This document shows positions 43,775-51,984 of a stretch of 64,000 nt of DNA, piece by piece (position 1 is the first letter of the stretch; each line of letters opens with the position of its first letter). Made by a program: the position numbers and the translations under genes. Below the pieces are notes generated by a model. The model searched no databases. It was not told the origin of the DNA and saw nothing but the letters and a program-made list of their open reading frames with translations. Origin of the DNA: a bacterium (GTDB lineage: Bacteria; Eisenbacteria; RBG-16-71-46; CAIMUX01); NCBI GenBank assembly GCA_030431975.1, contig JAUIHP010000002.1, forward strand, positions 124,001-188,000. The letters are read 5' to 3'.

Positions 43775-45547
43775 TTGACGAGCATGATCGGACGGCGCAT
43801 CGGCCGTTACGAAATCACAGGCGAGATCGGTCGCGGCGGAATGGGCATCGTCTACCGGGCCACCCAAACCACGCTCAACCGAATGGTCGCCGTAAAGATG
43901 CTCCCGCTGGCCTTCGCCGCCACCACCGACATGTTGGCGCGCTTTCGCCGTGAGGCGGAGACCCTGGCCCGGCTCAGCCACGAGAACGTCGTCCATGTCT
44001 ACGACATCGAAGAGCTGGACGGGAACCACTTCATCATCATGGAGCTGGTCGACGGACCGTCGCTGGGCAGAATCCTGCGGCAGCAAACGAAACTCGATCC
44101 TGCCGTAGCCCGTGATGTCGCCCTCGGTGTTGCCCGTGGACTGGCTGCGGCGCACGTGCAGGGCATCGTCCACCGTGACATCAAGCCGGACAACATCCTC
44201 TTCAGCTCGAGCGGACGGCCGAAGCTGACGGACTTCGGCATCGCCCGCGCCGACGATGCGCATCTCGAAACACAGACTGGCTCCCTTCTGGGCACCCCTC
44301 ACTACATCTCGCCGGAGCAGGCCCGGGGAGAGCGAGCCACGCAAACGTCGGACATCTACTCGATGGGGGTTCTTCTTTTCGAAATGCTGGCCGGGGAACG
44401 TCCTTTCTCCGGGAGAAATGCGGTCGACCTCTACCTCAAGCACCTGCAGGAGGAAGCGCCCGAGATTCGGCAGAAGGTGCCTCAGTTGACCGAGCCCTTT
44501 GCCAAGCTCGTCGACGCCTGCCTGGCCAAGTCGGCAGAAGAACGTATCGCCGACGGACCGACCCTGGTGGCCGAGCTGGAGTCCTTGTCTTTGAATCCGC
44601 CGCCTGGGAAGGCGCTCCGGGACGTGTTTCCCACGTTCGCCGCGGCGACTCCCGAAGGCACGGAAGGCCGCGTCTCCCGACCAGAGACAACACCGGAAGA
44701 GAAGCACGCCGCTGAAGCGGAGACGGAGCATCTCTCCGATCCGGGTGCGCGTTCCGATCGGGGCGCACGCTCCGATCCGGGCGTGCGTTCCGATCCGGGT
44801 GTGCGCTCCGCTGCCGGGGCGGGTGCGGGTGCAGATGCAGGAGGCGCTCCGCCGGCCCAGCGCCGCCCGGGTACACCGCCGACCCACGCTCCACGTGGTT
44901 TTCCGCCGAGACTCTGGATACCGACGATCGCGATTCTCGCGTTGGCCGTCGCGCTGGGACTGCGTTTGCTCCCATCCGGAGAGGAAAGCGGGCCGGAAGG
45001 CCCAGCCTCGGCAGAATCCTCCCTCCCCACTGGTTCGCCCGACGGGGCGGAGGGCAGCCCGGTCTCCGTTCCACCACAGGTCGAAAACCCGACCTCAAAC
45101 CCCGACTCTGTCCGGCAGAGCCCTGCCGGGACACCAACGCCAGGCGACGGTTCTTCCGCCAAATCTCTCTCCGCCGAGGAACGACGCCTCGCCTCGGCAA
45201 AGATCTTCCGCCTGCTCGCGGGTTTTGCGACGGATCTCGAAAGGTCCGGCCCACATGAGGCACTCTCTTCCCGTATTCTTGCCGACACCGGTCCGGATCT
45301 CGCAGAGGAGCTGGCAGCGATTCTGGGAGACTATCGCTCGCTCTCGGGAGAGAGCTCGGATATGAAGCCGACGGTGTTCGAACCGGGTCCTCGGGCACGT
45401 GTCCGCTTTGGTCAGACTCTGCGTCTCACGCGGGAGAAACGAGGCGCAGTGACCGAAAACGAGACCATCGAGGTCCACTACGATTGGTGGCTCGTCCCGG
45501 TGGATGGGGACTGGAGGATCGCCGAAGGAACGGCGACCCGGAGGTAG
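43775..45547 (+). CDS. Hanks-type Ser/Thr protein kinase, membrane-anchored
   Basis: 590 aa. Kinase motifs in order: glycine loop GEIGRGGMGIVY, VAVKML lysine, IVHRDIKPDNIL catalytic loop near residue 132, LTDFGIAR, and GTPHYISPEQARGE. A Pro/Gly/Arg-rich linker with tandem repeats follows, then one membrane helix (LWIPTIAILALAVALGLRLL). An outside domain of about 190 residues ends in IEVHYDWWLVPVDGDWRIAEG, resembling SnoaL/NTF2-like sensor folds. AAGGAGG is four bases before TTG 43775 and 13 before ATG 43784, so the start is uncertain. The next gene is its likely antagonist phosphatase. Confidence 0.93.
   Translation: MTSMIGRRIGRYEITGEIGRGGMGIVYRATQTTLNRMVAVKMLPLAFAATTDMLARFRREAETLARLSHENVVHVYDIEELDGNHFIIMELVDGPSLGRILRQQTKLDPAVARDVALGVARGLAAAHVQGIVHRDIKPDNILFSSSGRPKLTDFGIARADDAHLETQTGSLLGTPHYISPEQARGERATQTSDIYSMGVLLFEMLAGERPFSGRNAVDLYLKHLQEEAPEIRQKVPQLTEPFAKLVDACLAKSAEERIADGPTLVAELESLSLNPPPGKALRDVFPTFAAATPEGTEGRVSRPETTPEEKHAAEAETEHLSDPGARSDRGARSDPGVRSDPGVRSAAGAGAGADAGGAPPAQRRPGTPPTHAPRGFPPRLWIPTIAILALAVALGLRLLPSGEESGPEGPASAESSLPTGSPDGAEGSPVSVPPQVENPTSNPDSVRQSPAGTPTPGDGSSAKSLSAEERRLASAKIFRLLAGFATDLERSGPHEALSSRILADTGPDLAEELAAILGDYRSLSGESSDMKPTVFEPGPRARVRFGQTLRLTREKRGAVTENETIEVHYDWWLVPVDGDWRIAEGTATRR
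44737..44810 (+). repeat. 18-bp tandem repeats in the kinase linker
   Basis: About four imperfect units, based on CGTTCCGATCCGGGTGTG, encode RSDPGV/RSDRGA in the juxtamembrane linker. The frame is kept, so copy number could vary without loss of the kinase. Confidence 0.75.
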
Positions 45548-45569
45548 TTTGGAAGAAAGGGAAAGCAGA

Positions 45570-46673
45570 ATGGCAGCGAACTCGGTTCGCTACGGGGCGG
45601 CGTCACACGTCGGACAGGTTCGGGGTCGCAATGAGGACTCCTACCTGGTTTGGGTGGCCGACGAAGAGGACGAACGCCAGGCCGAGGCTGTCTTTCTGGT
45701 CGCGGACGGAATGGGCGGCCACGACGCGGGTGACGTCGCGAGCCGCTTCGTCGTTTCCGAACTCGAGCGCGCCATCGCCACCGACCGCACGTTTATCACT
45801 GACCAAGTGTTCTCCGCGCTTCCGAAGTGGTTTTCCGGCGTCAGCACCTCCCTACAGGGATTGGCCGAAGAGCGCGGCGCCAGCCGCGGAATGGGAAGCA
45901 CCGCGACTCTCGTTTCCATCATCTCCGGACACCTGGTCTTCGCGCACGTCGGCGACTCGCGACTGTACCGGCTCCGTAGCGGGGACTTTGAACAGCTGAG
46001 CCTCGACCATTCCTTTGCGCAGGAACAAAGACGTCGCGGGCTTCTGACCGAAGAGCAAGCCGCGCACCATCCGCAGCGAAACCTTCTCACGCAGGCACTG
46101 GGCGTAGACCGCGAACTCGACGTTCAAGTCGAGGAACTGGAGTGGCAGGACGGGGATCGTTATGTCCTTTGCAGCGACGGGCTCTACGGACCGGTCAATG
46201 ACACCCGGATCCGGACGATCGTCGGAATGTCCGACCTTCAGGAAGCGGCCGAGATGCTGGTCGCGGAAGCCAACCTGGAAGGCGGCCCGGACAACATCAC
46301 GGCGATCGTCTTCGAGATGATCGGCGAGGGGACGCCGAGTCCACCTCTCCAAAAAGTTCAGGCGGTGGCGGATGACCAACTCCCCACCGACCCCGGGATT
46401 CTCCCCGTGCCCGAGACGGCAAGCGCGGCGCACTCCGGATCCGAGGAAGCGGACGCCTACCCACGCGCTGCGTCGGGTCTCGATGGTGTTCATGGATCAC
46501 CGACGGAAGAAGGTGACGACGCCGAGCGGCAACGACGTCTGGCCGAATTGGCCGGTCTGGACGAAGCTCAGAGTGCGGGGGGCCGGCCGACCTGGCTGTG
46601 GCCGACCGTGGCCGTGGTCGTGATCACCGGCCTGGCACTTCTCATCTGGACCTGGGTACGCTCTCAGGGATGA
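45570..46673 (+). CDS. PP2C phosphatase with C-terminal membrane anchor
   Basis: 367 aa. Motifs: RNEDSYLVW, LVADGMGGHDAGDVASR, FAHVGDSRLYR, LCSDGLYGPV and GGPDNITAIVFE. An acidic Pro/Ser linker of about 90 residues follows, then a membrane helix at the very end (WLWPTVAVVVITGLALLIWTW). It probably dephosphorylates the kinase encoded 22 bases upstream or its targets. AAGGGA precedes the ATG by eight bases. Compared with the soluble PP2C at 1463 it has the added anchor. Confidence 0.92.
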   Translation: MAANSVRYGAASHVGQVRGRNEDSYLVWVADEEDERQAEAVFLVADGMGGHDAGDVASRFVVSELERAIATDRTFITDQVFSALPKWFSGVSTSLQGLAEERGASRGMGSTATLVSIISGHLVFAHVGDSRLYRLRSGDFEQLSLDHSFAQEQRRRGLLTEEQAAHHPQRNLLTQALGVDRELDVQVEELEWQDGDRYVLCSDGLYGPVNDTRIRTIVGMSDLQEAAEMLVAEANLEGGPDNITAIVFEMIGEGTPSPPLQKVQAVADDQLPTDPGILPVPETASAAHSGSEEADAYPRAASGLDGVHGSPTEEGDDAERQRRLAELAGLDEAQSAGGRPTWLWPTVAVVVITGLALLIWTWVRSQG

Positions 46674-47094: not shown

Positions 47095-47661
47095 TTAGGG
47101 TTCCGACCCCTCCCGGGTCATTCTATCGGCCAGGTCGGTTCCGAGGACGACCCGAACGTCTCCGCCCGAGACCCGCTCGTCGCCAAGCTGGATCTTCCCA
47201 ACCTGATACCGGTCCCACAGGTGGAGGAAAACCTCCCGCGCGGCTTCATGATCGTCGCTGTGGGCCAGAATCACCGTCTCGGCATAATCGTAGCCATCGG
47301 CATCACGGTAATCCAGCACATCGAAGCGCTCCCCGCGGAGTTCCGTCGCGAAGTTCCGAGCCAACCCGTCGACACCACACCCGTTCTCGATAACCACTGC
47401 GATCCGGTCGACGGGAAACTCATTGCCGAAGGACGGCGCTGGAATCGGGGCATCCGGTGGATCCATCGGCTGGGAGAGCTCGGTCGGGGGTCCGCTGATC
47501 GGAATCTCCGGCGAGTTGTCCCGATCCGAGAATCGACTGGCGATAGAAAGCCCGAACGTAAGAATGACGAGCAGCAGCACAAGTGCCGCCATTCCTTCGA
47601 AGGCTTTTCCGGGCGATCGCTTGCCCTTGCGACGGCGTGTACTTTTCTTACGTCGTGCCAT
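47095..47661 (-). CDS. Membrane-anchored LytR_C-domain protein
   Basis: 188 aa. A strongly basic start (MARRKKSTRRRKGKRSPG) precedes one membrane helix (GMAALVLLLVILTFGLSIA). A Pro-rich linker leads to a LytR_C domain (IAVVIENGCGVDGLARNFATEL, FDVLDYRDADGYDYAETVIL). In other bacteria this domain sits at the end of LytR-CpsA-Psr cell-wall ligases; here it stands alone. The ATG at 47661 has AAGGAG nine bases upstream. It may bind envelope polymers; function unproven. Confidence 0.72.
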   Translation of the reverse strand: MARRKKSTRRRKGKRSPGKAFEGMAALVLLLVILTFGLSIASRFSDRDNSPEIPISGPPTELSQPMDPPDAPIPAPSFGNEFPVDRIAVVIENGCGVDGLARNFATELRGERFDVLDYRDADGYDYAETVILAHSDDHEAAREVFLHLWDRYQVGKIQLGDERVSGGDVRVVLGTDLADRMTREGSEP

Positions 47662-47787
47662 CTTCCGCAACTCCTTTGCGTGCGACGGTCGGCGCCAGCG
47701 AGTTTCAGCGCGATCCTTGCGCCCCACCTCGACCCACCTCAGCGTGAACGGCGGCGCCGGCTCTTGGTGTCCTGCGTCAGTAGGACA

Positions 47788-48948
47788 CTAGGACCGAATG
47801 ACCCCCAGCAGGCGCTCTTTCGTTTGCTCCAAAGACTCGGGGAGGACGTTGACCTTTGCCACCAGCGGCATGAAGCTGCTGTCTCCCGCCCAACGCGGAA
47901 TGGCGTGCAGCACGAGTTGTCCCGACGGATCCCCGGAGTCGAAGCCCAGGTTGATTCCTTCCGGATCGTACGCCTGACGAAGCCATCCCTCGGCTTCCCG
48001 GCCCAGTCGGAACAGAGACTCGCGCCCCCGGTCGTCCAGTGACTCGAAGAACACGGTCGGTTCCTTCGGCGTGATCCAAAGATGCCCGGAATTGTAGGGG
48101 TGCGGAGCGAGCGCCACAATCATCTCGTCGCGTTCCAGAAGAACCAGTTCGTCGCGGCGGTTCTCCAAGGCGTCGAGAACCGTGGAACCCCACTCCCCTT
48201 CTCCGGCTTCCCGCCGTCCGCGATGGACGGCGGCGGCATCAGCCAACTGCTCCGGCGTATTGATTCCGGAGATCTCTTCCGGATCTTCGATCTCCATGAT
48301 GCGGGCAGGGAGTCCCGCCTCCCGAATCATCTCCAGCGTGTCGGTGAGATAGTACTCACCCTGGGCATTGTCGTTCTTGAGCTGCGCGAGCGCGTCGAGA
48401 AGCGGGCCCAGCTTGAACGCATAGATCCCGGAGTTGATCTCGTTGTTGGCGCGCTGATCCGCGGCCAGGTCCTTGTCCTCGATGATGCGAAGAAAGCCGC
48501 CGGCGTCGTCGCGGAAGACGCGCCCGTACCCGCTGGGATCTTTCAACCTCGCTGTCAGCACGGTCACGCCGTGGTCACCGAGTTCATGTCGTTCCATGAG
48601 TTGTCTAAGTGTCGACGGACGGAGCAAAGGAACGTCGCCATAGAGCACGAGAAGAGAACCGTCCCGGGATTCCAAGTGTTCGCGCGCGCAGATGACGGCG
48701 TGACCCGTGCCCAGCTGCGGCTCCTGCAGCGCGTAGGCAAGGCCCTTGTCGGCATGGGCCTCTTTAACCGCCTCGGCCTGGTGCCCGACAACCACGATGG
48801 TGTGGTCGATCCCGAGCCGACGCGAAGTGTCGACGACGTGGGTCAGGAGCGGTCGTCCTTCCATCGGATGAAGAACCTTGGCCAGGTCGGACTTCATCCG
48901 CGTGCCCTTGCCCGCGGCGAGAATGAGTGAGGTCCAGTTCTGCTTCAA
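47788..48948 (-). CDS. Fusion: GlmU-type sugar nucleotidyltransferase + HIT-like domain
   Basis: 386 aa. Residues 1-235 are a nucleotidyltransferase with the GlmU pattern: LILAAGKGTRMKSDLAKVLHP, LGTGHAV, LVLYGDVPLL, GYGRVFRDD and NNEINSGIYAFK. Instead of the left-handed-helix acetyltransferase of GlmU, residues 250-386 form a HIT-fold domain (LLERDEMIVALAPHPYNSGHLWITP, AIPRWAGDSSFMPLVAKVNVLPESLEQT). In HIT enzymes the site reads GHLHxHVVPRW; here it reads GQLVLHAIPRW, so two of the three histidines, including the catalytic one, are gone (Gln344, Val346, only His348 kept). It starts one base after the panC stop. It probably makes a UDP- or other NDP-sugar, with the HIT part regulating or binding nucleotide. 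Confidence 0.85.
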   Translation of the reverse strand: MKQNWTSLILAAGKGTRMKSDLAKVLHPMEGRPLLTHVVDTSRRLGIDHTIVVVGHQAEAVKEAHADKGLAYALQEPQLGTGHAVICAREHLESRDGSLLVLYGDVPLLRPSTLRQLMERHELGDHGVTVLTARLKDPSGYGRVFRDDAGGFLRIIEDKDLAADQRANNEINSGIYAFKLGPLLDALAQLKNDNAQGEYYLTDTLEMIREAGLPARIMEIEDPEEISGINTPEQLADAAAVHRGRREAGEGEWGSTVLDALENRRDELVLLERDEMIVALAPHPYNSGHLWITPKEPTVFFESLDDRGRESLFRLGREAEGWLRQAYDPEGINLGFDSGDPSGQLVLHAIPRWAGDSSFMPLVAKVNVLPESLEQTKERLLGVIRS

Positions 48949-48949
48949 C

Positions 48950-49807
48950 TCAACTTCCTTTCGGTGCCTGGATCCAAACGTTGTCTATCAGGCGAGCTTT
49001 GCCCAGGTAGTAAGCCACGGCAAGGACGAGCTTGCCGGAAAGCTTTCGAACGCGGCCCAGATCCTCCCGGGAAAGAATCTCGATGTAGTCGATCCGGCCC
49101 GGGCCATCCTTCAGCAACGACTCGACCCGTTTGACCGCACTCGCGGCCGTCTTGATTTCACCGGCCTGAACCAACTTTCGAACTTTGGAGAGCGCGCGAA
49201 ACAGTTCCGGCGCAAAGGCGCGCTCTTCCGTCGTGAGATAACTGTTTCGCGAACTCATGGCCAGCCCGTCTGCTTCCCGAACCGTCGGACAGACGACGAC
49301 TTTGACCGCAAAATCCAGGTCTTCGACCATCCTCGTCAGGATCACCGCCTGCTGGAAGTCCTTCTGACCCAGATAGAGCCGATCCGGTCCGGCGGCATTC
49401 AGCAACTTGGTCACGATGGTCGTCACTCCGGCGAAGTGACCCGGCCGACGCGTTCCGCACAGCGCCTGATCGAGTCCATCGACGACGACGCGGGTCGCAA
49501 ACTCCCGGGGATAGAGGTCGGCCGCAGCGGGCTCGTAGACAAAGTCGACCCCTTCGCTCCGGAGGAGTCGACGGTCCCGCGCCAGGTCACGCGGATAGGA
49601 CTCGAAGTCCTCTCCCGGCCCGAACTGCAGCGGGTTGACGAAAATGCTGGCCACGACAACGTCGTTGTCGCGGCGAGCCCGACGAACCAAAGAAAGATGG
49701 CCTTCGTGGAGAAAGCCCATCGTCGGGACGAACCCGACGGATTCTCCTTTGGAACGGGCGGAGCGAACCGCCGACTGAAGCCGCCGGGCCGAACGAATTC
49801 GTTTCAA
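48950..49807 (-). CDS. panC: Pantothenate synthetase PanC
   Basis: 285 aa. Joins pantoate and beta-alanine with ATP. Motifs: FVPTMGFLHEGHLSLVRRA (HxGH adenylate site), IFVNPLQFGPGEDFESYPR, VTTIVTKLLNAAGPDRLYLGQKDFQQ and MSSRNSYL (KMSKS-like). The start is TTG overlapping the panB stop (TTGA), with a GAAGAG stretch just upstream. Together with panB it gives pantothenate for CoA; coaX lies 4 kb upstream in the same direction. Confidence 0.96.
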   Translation of the reverse strand: MKRIRSARRLQSAVRSARSKGESVGFVPTMGFLHEGHLSLVRRARRDNDVVVASIFVNPLQFGPGEDFESYPRDLARDRRLLRSEGVDFVYEPAAADLYPREFATRVVVDGLDQALCGTRRPGHFAGVTTIVTKLLNAAGPDRLYLGQKDFQQAVILTRMVEDLDFAVKVVVCPTVREADGLAMSSRNSYLTTEERAFAPELFRALSKVRKLVQAGEIKTAASAVKRVESLLKDGPGRIDYIEILSREDLGRVRKLSGKLVLAVAYYLGKARLIDNVWIQAPKGS

Positions 49808-50736
49808 CTCTTCTTTCCCCGGCTTGGGGACTTCCGGCTCGCCTTCTTCGTCCGTGTCGTTTTCGCCCGAGTCGCTTTCGTCCGGGTCGACGAGGATGCG
49901 GACGAAGACGGGGACGCCGTCGACGAGGTCGTCTTGCTGGACGTATCCCGGTACTCGTGCTCCGAGGCGGGGAACTTGCCCTGGCGGACCTCCGCGCAGT
50001 ACTTCGCGGCGGCTTCGACGATCGTCTTGCCGACGTGGGCGAATCGTTTGACGAAACGCGGAGCAAAGTCAGGGTCCAACCCGAGCAGATCGTTGATGAC
50101 CAGGACCTGACCGTCACAACCAGCCCCGGCTCCGATCCCGATGGTCGGAATGGAAGCGGCCGCCGTAACCCGAGCCGCCAGCTCGGACGGAACCTTCTCC
50201 AGAACGAGCAGGAAGCAACCAGCGTCCTCGAGGATCCTGGCTTCCTCCAAAAGGCGGTCTCCTTCCTTCCCCTTCCCTTGCAGCGGATACCCGCCAAGCG
50301 CGAGGACGGACTGCGGCGTCAGTCCCAGATGTCCAACTACGGGAATGCCGGCTTCGACGATGCGACGAATGGCGGCCGCACTCCGTTCTCCTCCCTCGAG
50401 TTTGACGGCATCGGCGCCCGACTCTTTGACGATGCGCCCCGCCGACTCGAGCGCCCGGGCCGGGCTGATCTGAAAGGAGAGAAATGGCATGTCGACCACG
50501 ACCAGCGCTTTCGGCTTGGCGCGCATGACGGCGCTGGCGTGGTGAATCATGTGCTGAAGGGTGACCGGCACGGTCGTCTCGTATCCCAGGACGACGTTAC
50601 CCAGACTGTCACCAACCAAATAGAGAGGCACGCCCGCCTGATCGAGAAGCTTGGACATTGTGTAGTCGTAGCAGGTGAGCATCGGGATCTTGTCCCGGCC
50701 CTTCATCTGCCGAATGTCGCGTGTGGTCCATCTCAT
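49804..50736 (-). CDS. panB: Ketopantoate hydroxymethyltransferase PanB with basic tail
   Basis: 310 aa. Family motifs: DKIPMLTCYDYTMSKLLDQA, YLVGDSLGNVVLG (Mg-binding), VDMPFLSF, AVKLEGG, PVVGHLGLTPQS and GIGAGAGCDGQVLV. The enzyme part ends near residue 264. About 45 residues of Ser/Thr/Lys/Arg-rich tail follow (TRTKATRAKTTRTKKASRK), which PanB normally lacks. The ATG at 50736 has GGGAG seven bases upstream; the GTG two codons earlier is less likely. Confidence 0.94.
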   Translation of the reverse strand: MRWTTRDIRQMKGRDKIPMLTCYDYTMSKLLDQAGVPLYLVGDSLGNVVLGYETTVPVTLQHMIHHASAVMRAKPKALVVVDMPFLSFQISPARALESAGRIVKESGADAVKLEGGERSAAAIRRIVEAGIPVVGHLGLTPQSVLALGGYPLQGKGKEGDRLLEEARILEDAGCFLLVLEKVPSELAARVTAAASIPTIGIGAGAGCDGQVLVINDLLGLDPDFAPRFVKRFAHVGKTIVEAAAKYCAEVRQGKFPASEHEYRDTSSKTTSSTASPSSSASSSTRTKATRAKTTRTKKASRKSPSRGKKS

Positions 50737-50779
50737 GGGCACGCTCCCTTCCGCCGCATTCTTGCGACCGTTTTTGCGG

Positions 50780-51415
50780 CTATCCAGCGGGATTGTAGTA
50801 CGCGGTCCCCTTGTCGTGCGAAAGGATCCTCTGAATCAGTTCCTCACGCTGCGACTCTTCCGCCACGACATCGATCTCGTTCGTGTTGACGACCAAAACG
50901 GGCGCGTCCTGGTAGTGAAAGAAGAAGTAGTCGTAGGCTTCCCGCAAGGTTTCCAGGTAATCGGGATCGATGTTGCGCTCGAAGTCCCGTCCCCGCTTTT
51001 CGATTCTCTTCAGGATGGTCGGAAGCTCGGCGCGCAGGTAGACCACCCGGTCCGGCCGCGGCAGGTCCCGCTCGAGCAGAGGAAGGATCTGGTCGTAGAG
51101 TTCCATCTCTGCATCAGCCAGGTTGATCGAAGCGAAGATGCGGTCCTTCTGAAACAGATAGTCGGAAACGACCGCGGACTGGAAGAGATCCCGCTGCACG
51201 AGCGCCGACTGTTGCCGGTAACGCGAGAGCAGAAAGAAGAGCTGCGTCTGGAACGCGAACCGGACGCGGTCTTCGTAGAAGGAGGCCAGGAACGGATTCT
51301 CCTCCACAACTTCCAGCACCGGCGTTGCCTGCAGACGCCGGCTGAGCATCTGCGTCAGGGTCGTCTTTCCAACTCCGATGACGCCCTCGATGGCGATGAA
51401 CTGACCACCTGCCAT
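50780..51415 (-). CDS. Deoxynucleoside kinase (dNK/dGK family)
   Basis: 211 aa. P-loop FIAIEGVIGVGKTTLTQ at the N-terminus, EENPFLASFYED, QTQLFFLLSRYRQQ, then VVSDYLFQKDRIFA (in place of the DRS motif) and the RGRDFERNID lid. It phosphorylates deoxynucleosides for salvage; base preference cannot be told. The ATG at 51415 overlaps the folK stop (TGATG); a longer reading frame upstream runs into folK and is not needed. Confidence 0.9.
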   Translation of the reverse strand: MAGGQFIAIEGVIGVGKTTLTQMLSRRLQATPVLEVVEENPFLASFYEDRVRFAFQTQLFFLLSRYRQQSALVQRDLFQSAVVSDYLFQKDRIFASINLADAEMELYDQILPLLERDLPRPDRVVYLRAELPTILKRIEKRGRDFERNIDPDYLETLREAYDYFFFHYQDAPVLVVNTNEIDVVAEESQREELIQRILSHDKGTAYYNPAG

Positions 51416-51984
51416 CAGACGGGCTCCCGGTTGGCGGGAAGATGGCGCCACGGGTACTCGCTGCACGTCAGGCCGTCTTCACCGGTGAACGGACCGTAGA
51501 GTCGAACGTCTCCGGGCCCCACTTGCAAGTTGGTCAGCAGCGCGGCTGCGGAACGGCCGAGCACAGGATGCCGCCAGTGCGGATCGATCTCGCAGAGCGG
51601 AACGAGGACGAAGGCGCGTTCTGACATTCTGGGGTGAGGCAGCGTCAGCTCCTCGGTTTCGAGGACCGTTTCGCCGACCGCCAGCAGGTCGAGGTCGACG
51701 ACGCGGTCACCATCCCGGTCCGGATCCCCGACGTCCGGCCGGCCCATCTCCGTCTCGATGGCCTGGAGCACGGCCAGGATCTCCTGCGGGGTTTGCGATG
51801 ACTCCGATTGAAGGACAGCGTTGAGGAAGTTGGCGCCGAAGCCCGTGCCGACGGGACGGGTTTCGTAGAGATGTGACACGCGGACGGGAACGAGACCCGC
51901 CTGCCCGAGCTTTTGGACGGCGGCGGAAAGCCAGGCCGCCGGATCCGGAACATTGCTGCCGAGACCGATCCAGACTGGGTTCAT
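51415..51984 (-). CDS. folK: 6-hydroxymethyl-dihydropterin pyrophosphokinase FolK
   Basis: 189 aa. Motifs: WIGLGSNVPDPAAWL, VSHLYETRPVG, ANFLNAVLQSE, IETEMGR and RVVDLDLLAVGE (Mg-binding DxDLL), PHPRMSERAFVLVPL. The last 25 residues (GPFTGEDGLTCSEYPW...) are beyond the usual end. Its start overlaps the folB stop (ATGA), so the two folate steps are coupled. Confidence 0.94.
   Translation of the reverse strand: MNPVWIGLGSNVPDPAAWLSAAVQKLGQAGLVPVRVSHLYETRPVGTGFGANFLNAVLQSESSQTPQEILAVLQAIETEMGRPDVGDPDRDGDRVVDLDLLAVGETVLETEELTLPHPRMSERAFVLVPLCEIDPHWRHPVLGRSAAALLTNLQVGPGDVRLYGPFTGEDGLTCSEYPWRHLPANREPV

Follow-up and report, generated by a model that had tools for sequence, protein, structure and literature searches.

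A GlmU-type pyrophosphorylase fused to a predicted HIT pseudoenzyme domain throughout a bacterial order

In the window, the 64,000-nucleotide stretch of DNA analysed here, one gene encodes a GlmU-type pyrophosphorylase joined in frame to a HIT domain that has lost its catalytic residues. The HIT part is a predicted pseudoenzyme domain that arose through fusion of operon genes and occurs lineage-wide; what we infer concerns its function. The fusion is a trait of the whole order, which consists of uncultured bacteria, not an oddity of one strain.

Domain architecture of the fused gene

The gene and its parts are as follows.

47788..48948, minus strand: 386-aa fusion of a GlmU-type nucleotidyltransferase with a degenerate HIT protein; SD-like AAGGAAG upstream of a TTG start
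48214..48948, minus strand: GlmU N-terminal pyrophosphorylase domain, residues 1-245; NF010935, alignment with bona fide GlmU, Foldseek GlmU matches
48157..48213, minus strand: linker, residues 246-264, from alignments; CxxC zinc-knuckle in other fusions, W253 and T256 in the window
47806..48156, minus strand: HIT-fold domain, Ap4A-phosphorylase-like, residues 265-381; NF052622 match, AlphaFold2, Foldseek to 3ANO
47905..47919, minus strand: former triad Q344-L-V346-L-H348; zinc-ligand His changed to Q, nucleophile His to V, third His kept
47920..47937, minus strand: phosphate-binding loop remnant, residues 338-343, from the HIT alignment; 6 residues versus 11 in unfused HITs

The sequence preceding the TTG start is purine-rich. 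The GlmU model NF010935 covers residues 4-277 (E 1.9e-85), and TIGR01173, the model of bifunctional GlmU, matches residues 8-269 (E 7.1e-80). At 269 bits, the latter match lies below the curated score of 366.85, and the protein is without the C-terminal left-handed beta-helix acetyltransferase domain. The ATP adenylyltransferase model NF052622 covers residues 266-380 (E 3.4e-15) with 58.7 bits; an intact operonic HIT scores 134, and both are below the curated 290 bits. Pfam HIT scores 18.7 bits on the window fusion, slightly under the cut-off of 21.5.

AlphaFold2 predicts two confident domains for the fused family (pLDDT 89.1, pTM 0.87), and Foldseek matches the N-terminal half of the model to GlmU structures. 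For the HIT part modelled alone, the top Foldseek match is M. tuberculosis Ap4A phosphorylase 3ANO (E 8.7e-12, TM 0.80), followed by Zn-bound HIT, FHIT and HINT structures. The HIT part is thus predicted, by two AlphaFold2 models and Foldseek, to have the HIT fold. The nucleotidyltransferase-HIT fusion proposed by the first-pass annotation is borne out by the profile matches and by both structural methods, and the structure prediction that it suggested for the HIT part gives the expected fold.

The pyrophosphorylase domain is ~40% identical to GlmU and keeps all of its motifs. Specifically, LAAGKGTRM, KVLH, LGTGHA, YGDVPL, GYGR, EDKD, NEINSG and GINTP are intact in the window when compared with bona fide GlmU, and the active-site motifs are kept in nine of the ten fusions known in the order. 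The remaining fusion, that of genome G009 (L040:1474-2640, L073), has a degenerate pyrophosphorylase, with LAAGKG changed to LGAEHG (LGAEHGAKK) and YGDVPL to LSSSVC, and a better kept HIT half. The G009 assembly is without panC and the adjacent upstream contig, and an intact tandem pyrophosphorylase copy could be missing from it.

Unlike GlmU, the fusion has a HIT domain and no left-handed beta-helix acetyltransferase half. The first-pass annotation took the one to have replaced the other. This is ruled out by the unfused relatives across the class, which have a stand-alone GlmU N-domain and are without the acetyltransferase half too. Bifunctional GlmU over the cut-off is found in none of 47 class genomes. 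In the 20 nearest genomes there is no close match to the acetyltransferase half, with weak hexapeptide-type matches only, and no GlmM over the cut-off. In the window's genome these searches find no close GlmU C-domain and, apart from the fusion, no other close GlmU-like pyrophosphorylase. The genes found do not account for a route to GlcNAc-1-P.

Operon setting and origin of the fusion

The gene lies within a conserved operon.

49804..51984, minus strand: panB, dNK and folK, upstream in the operon and conserved there (Pfam, synteny across the class)
48950..49807, minus strand: panC, directly upstream (Pfam Pantoate_ligase, E 2.7e-101)
47095..47727, minus strand: LytR_C-domain protein, conserved downstream neighbour (PF13399, E 7.1e-11, synteny)

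The panC stop adjoins the TTG start codon of the fusion gene. The order folK-dNK-panB-panC-nucleotidyltransferase-HIT-LytR_C is conserved among the class regions compared. Outside the window's order, the same operon slot in the class holds the nucleotidyltransferase and HIT as separate adjoining genes: the pyrophosphorylase gene is separate in the other class members, and a separate HIT gene comes next in nearly all of them. In genome G014 the pyrophosphorylase gene is flanked by panC and LytR_C, and no HIT gene is recognised there. In a Krumholzibacteriota MAG (L033:4465-5812), the pyrophosphorylase and HIT are overlapping but separate ORFs after the same dNK-panB-panC order; in the HIT and nucleotidyltransferase trees this region is not clearly nested inside the window's class. 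On the plus strand of the window, at 43775-46673, ORF translations reveal overlapping Ser/Thr protein kinase-like and PP2C-phosphatase-like genes, convergent with this operon.

Whole-genome searches find the in-frame fusion in all ten genomes of the order that have the gene, spread over four families; an eleventh genome, G002, 68% complete, gives no match to it. Each half forms one fused clade (100/99 in the HIT tree, 97/94 in the nucleotidyltransferase tree), consistent with one fusion event. A search of named genome contigs, whose scan reaches close relatives only, finds no fusion outside the order and one adjacent pair, that of the Krumholzibacteriota MAG. The matches listed in a viral fold search are of pyrophosphorylase type, glycosyltransferases or single HITs, with no GlmU-HIT fusion among them.

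Relatives outside the order have the two genes side by side but unfused, and a sequencing or assembly error, or a frameshift, could in principle have joined them, as the first-pass annotation had warned. The identical in-frame fusion is open in ten independent genome assemblies, which rules out an artefact for practical purposes. A strain-specific loss, the other caveat raised there, is ruled out by the same ten genomes; none of the ten fusions has an intact triad. A stand-alone GlmU N-domain (UDP-GlcNAc pyrophosphorylase) gene and an adjoining Ap4A-phosphorylase-like HIT gene would appear to have fused once, in the ancestor of the order.

Residues lost and kept in the fused HIT domain

The 10 fused HITs were aligned with 16 unfused HITs of the operon and 7 paralogues. 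With GQLVLHAIPRW of the window placed against GHLHWHVVPRW, the triad is Q344-V346-H348, in agreement with the Q-L-V-L-H first read from the sequence. The middle His, the nucleophile, is H in 16/16 unfused HITs and 7/7 paralogues and V, A or G in 10/10 fusions, none of which has an HxHxH motif. The ribose Asn is likewise N in all 16 and all 7, and A, S, H or E in every fusion. The distance from the NxG motif to the triad is 11 residues in all intact HITs versus 5 or 6 in all fusions, from which the AGAG loop is gone. The Asn and the AGAG loop we take to be nucleotide contacts, as in FHIT-type structures.

HIT-type catalysis by the fused domain is very unlikely on this alignment, in line with the annotated prediction of a catalytically dead domain. 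Ap4A phosphorolysis by the window fusion in particular is predicted to be absent because the nucleophile and the phosphate loop are lost. Other features are kept. In 10/10 fusions PRW-x-GD is kept, as are the N and G of PYN-G, whose second residue is Y or F, and the PE motif's E; 13 HIT columns are invariant across them. The kept motifs would be compatible with a structural role.

The third triad position is only H, Q or E among the ten fusions, and V, A and G at the nucleophile position are uniformly small, not random. The HIT pocket might thus have become an altered active site that carries out or helps with a different reaction, such as handling pyrophosphate or a nucleotide on behalf of the pyrophosphorylase, and the better kept HIT half of G009 would suit this idea. 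We regard it as improbable, since the phosphate loop is deleted and the alignments of the fusions reveal no new conserved polar residue in place of the lost nucleophile.

In E. coli GalT, a HIT-superfamily uridylyltransferase, the zinc ligands are Cys52, Cys55, His115 and His164, of which His164 begins the HPH motif, and the nucleophile is His166 (PMC5081055). Counterparts of these ligands, namely CxxC, a His and the triad's first His, occur in every unfused HIT, in all paralogues compared and in 9/10 fusions, which in this respect have the ligands of GalT; the nucleophilic second His kept in GalT is lost in the fusions. The window fusion alone has W253, T256, P297 and Q344 at the four positions, and all four ligands are absent. 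Q344 occupies the first-His position, which by homology with GalT is that of a zinc ligand and not the catalytic one, and the decisive position for catalysis is V346. The reading that Q in the triad means lost catalysis is corrected accordingly. Q344 is best read as part of a zinc-site loss in the window's lineage, atop an order-wide loss of the nucleophile. In alignments, mycobacterial Ap4A phosphorylases are without CxxC and the third ligand and keep the first His, which indicates that the HIT fold tolerates zinc loss.

A second HIT gene at a different locus is present in 10/11 order genomes. Where read, these copies have an intact HxHxH and AGAG loop, and CxxC is present. In the window's genome the gene lies ~8 kb before the window (G000:C10:115583-116014; L114, L135), with an intact HIHLH, AGAG loop and CxxC. 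Together with one family f6 copy, the order's second copies form their own clade (93/84), apart from the operonic line; the ten order copies alone are supported at 99/92 in the HIT tree. The second gene may have freed the operonic copy to decay, if cause ran in that direction. The same genome also encodes a HINT-like protein (L137).

Constraint and possible role of the fused domain

The ratio of HIT to nucleotidyltransferase distance is 1.6 within fusions versus 0.7-0.9 among unfused pairs, indicating that the HIT part accelerated ~2x relative to its partner after fusion. Between fused pairs, HIT codon mismatches average 0.42, 0.37 and 0.61 at positions 1, 2 and 3, a pattern that resembles that of the nucleotidyltransferase half; position 3 is near saturation, so that the comparison is a qualitative sign and gives no rate. 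The lower variability of positions 1 and 2 indicates that the HIT domain is still selected, less strictly. With a fold that appears to be under selection and catalytic residues lost clade-wide, the fused HIT shows the traits that define a pseudoenzyme domain.

The faster evolution, the further loss in the window (no zinc ligand of four) and the intact paralogue at hand could instead point to a neutral leftover, in which read-through joined the genes, the second HIT gene took over catalysis and the fused domain is merely tolerated. This is quite unlikely: the fused HIT is open and alignable in ten genomes from four families at a mean distance of 2.3 substitutions/site among the nine that were measured, the first two codon positions are constrained, and the invariant columns hold in every fusion.

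We lean, by a small measure, towards a single ancestral fusion that yielded a pseudoenzyme HIT acting as a structural or oligomerisation module of an active pyrophosphorylase. After loss of the nucleophile, phosphate loop and ribose contact, the fused HIT would have become a non-catalytic module that probably stabilises or positions the still-active pyrophosphorylase. Such a role fits best because the fold core is kept, the zinc site is kept in nine of ten fusions, and the constraint is relaxed yet real. Against it, the kept third position and PYN make some ligand binding possible. Moreover, G009, with its degenerate pyrophosphorylase and kept HIT, is at odds with a role confined to assisting the pyrophosphorylase, unless its assembly misses an intact copy.

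An allosteric sensor, as the first-pass annotation envisaged, would be a dead HIT with retained binding of Ap4A, AMP, UMP or a similar nucleotide, by which UDP-GlcNAc synthesis is tuned. It would account for the constraint on the domain, for the kept PYN-G segment and third triad position, and for an unfused version that is probably an Ap4A-type enzyme beside the same gene. However, the known nucleotide contacts are precisely the lost parts: the ribose Asn, the nucleophile and 5-6 AGAG-loop residues are gone in 10/10, and with them every placeable nucleotide-contact motif. The annotated claim that the domain still binds nucleotides is hence weakened and not supported, and control by a nucleotide is rather unlikely. 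Unlikelier by a shade is the broader proposal that a former Ap4A-cleaving enzyme is a pseudoenzyme regulator built into a UDP-GlcNAc pyrophosphorylase, which would tie the synthesis of cell-wall precursors to a nucleotide alarmone or metabolite order-wide, one member having lost the zinc site.

The structural reading can be set beside known HIT proteins. By sequence and by structure alike, the HIT part matches the mycobacterial Ap4A phosphorylase Rv2613c best (NF052622; 3ANO, 3WO5, 6AF2), and it has a PRWxGDxNF tail in common with that enzyme; in contrast to Rv2613c, the fusion has lost the nucleophilic His, the Asn that binds ribose and the phosphate loop, and is joined to a pyrophosphorylase. 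NitFhit (1EMS) is a nitrilase-Fhit fusion, in which a HIT protein that is separate in other lineages is fused to an unrelated enzyme and keeps its catalytic His. The fusion described here is likewise a HIT-enzyme fusion, but its catalytic His is lost. In the literature searched, which covered few subscription journals, we found no paper naming a GlmU-HIT link.

The order and its relatives provide a natural series, from separate, apparently active operon enzymes through one fusion to uniform catalytic loss in a retained fold, alongside an intact spare gene at another locus. The series makes it testable whether HIT enzymes encoded beside glmU genes act on UDP-GlcNAc synthesis.
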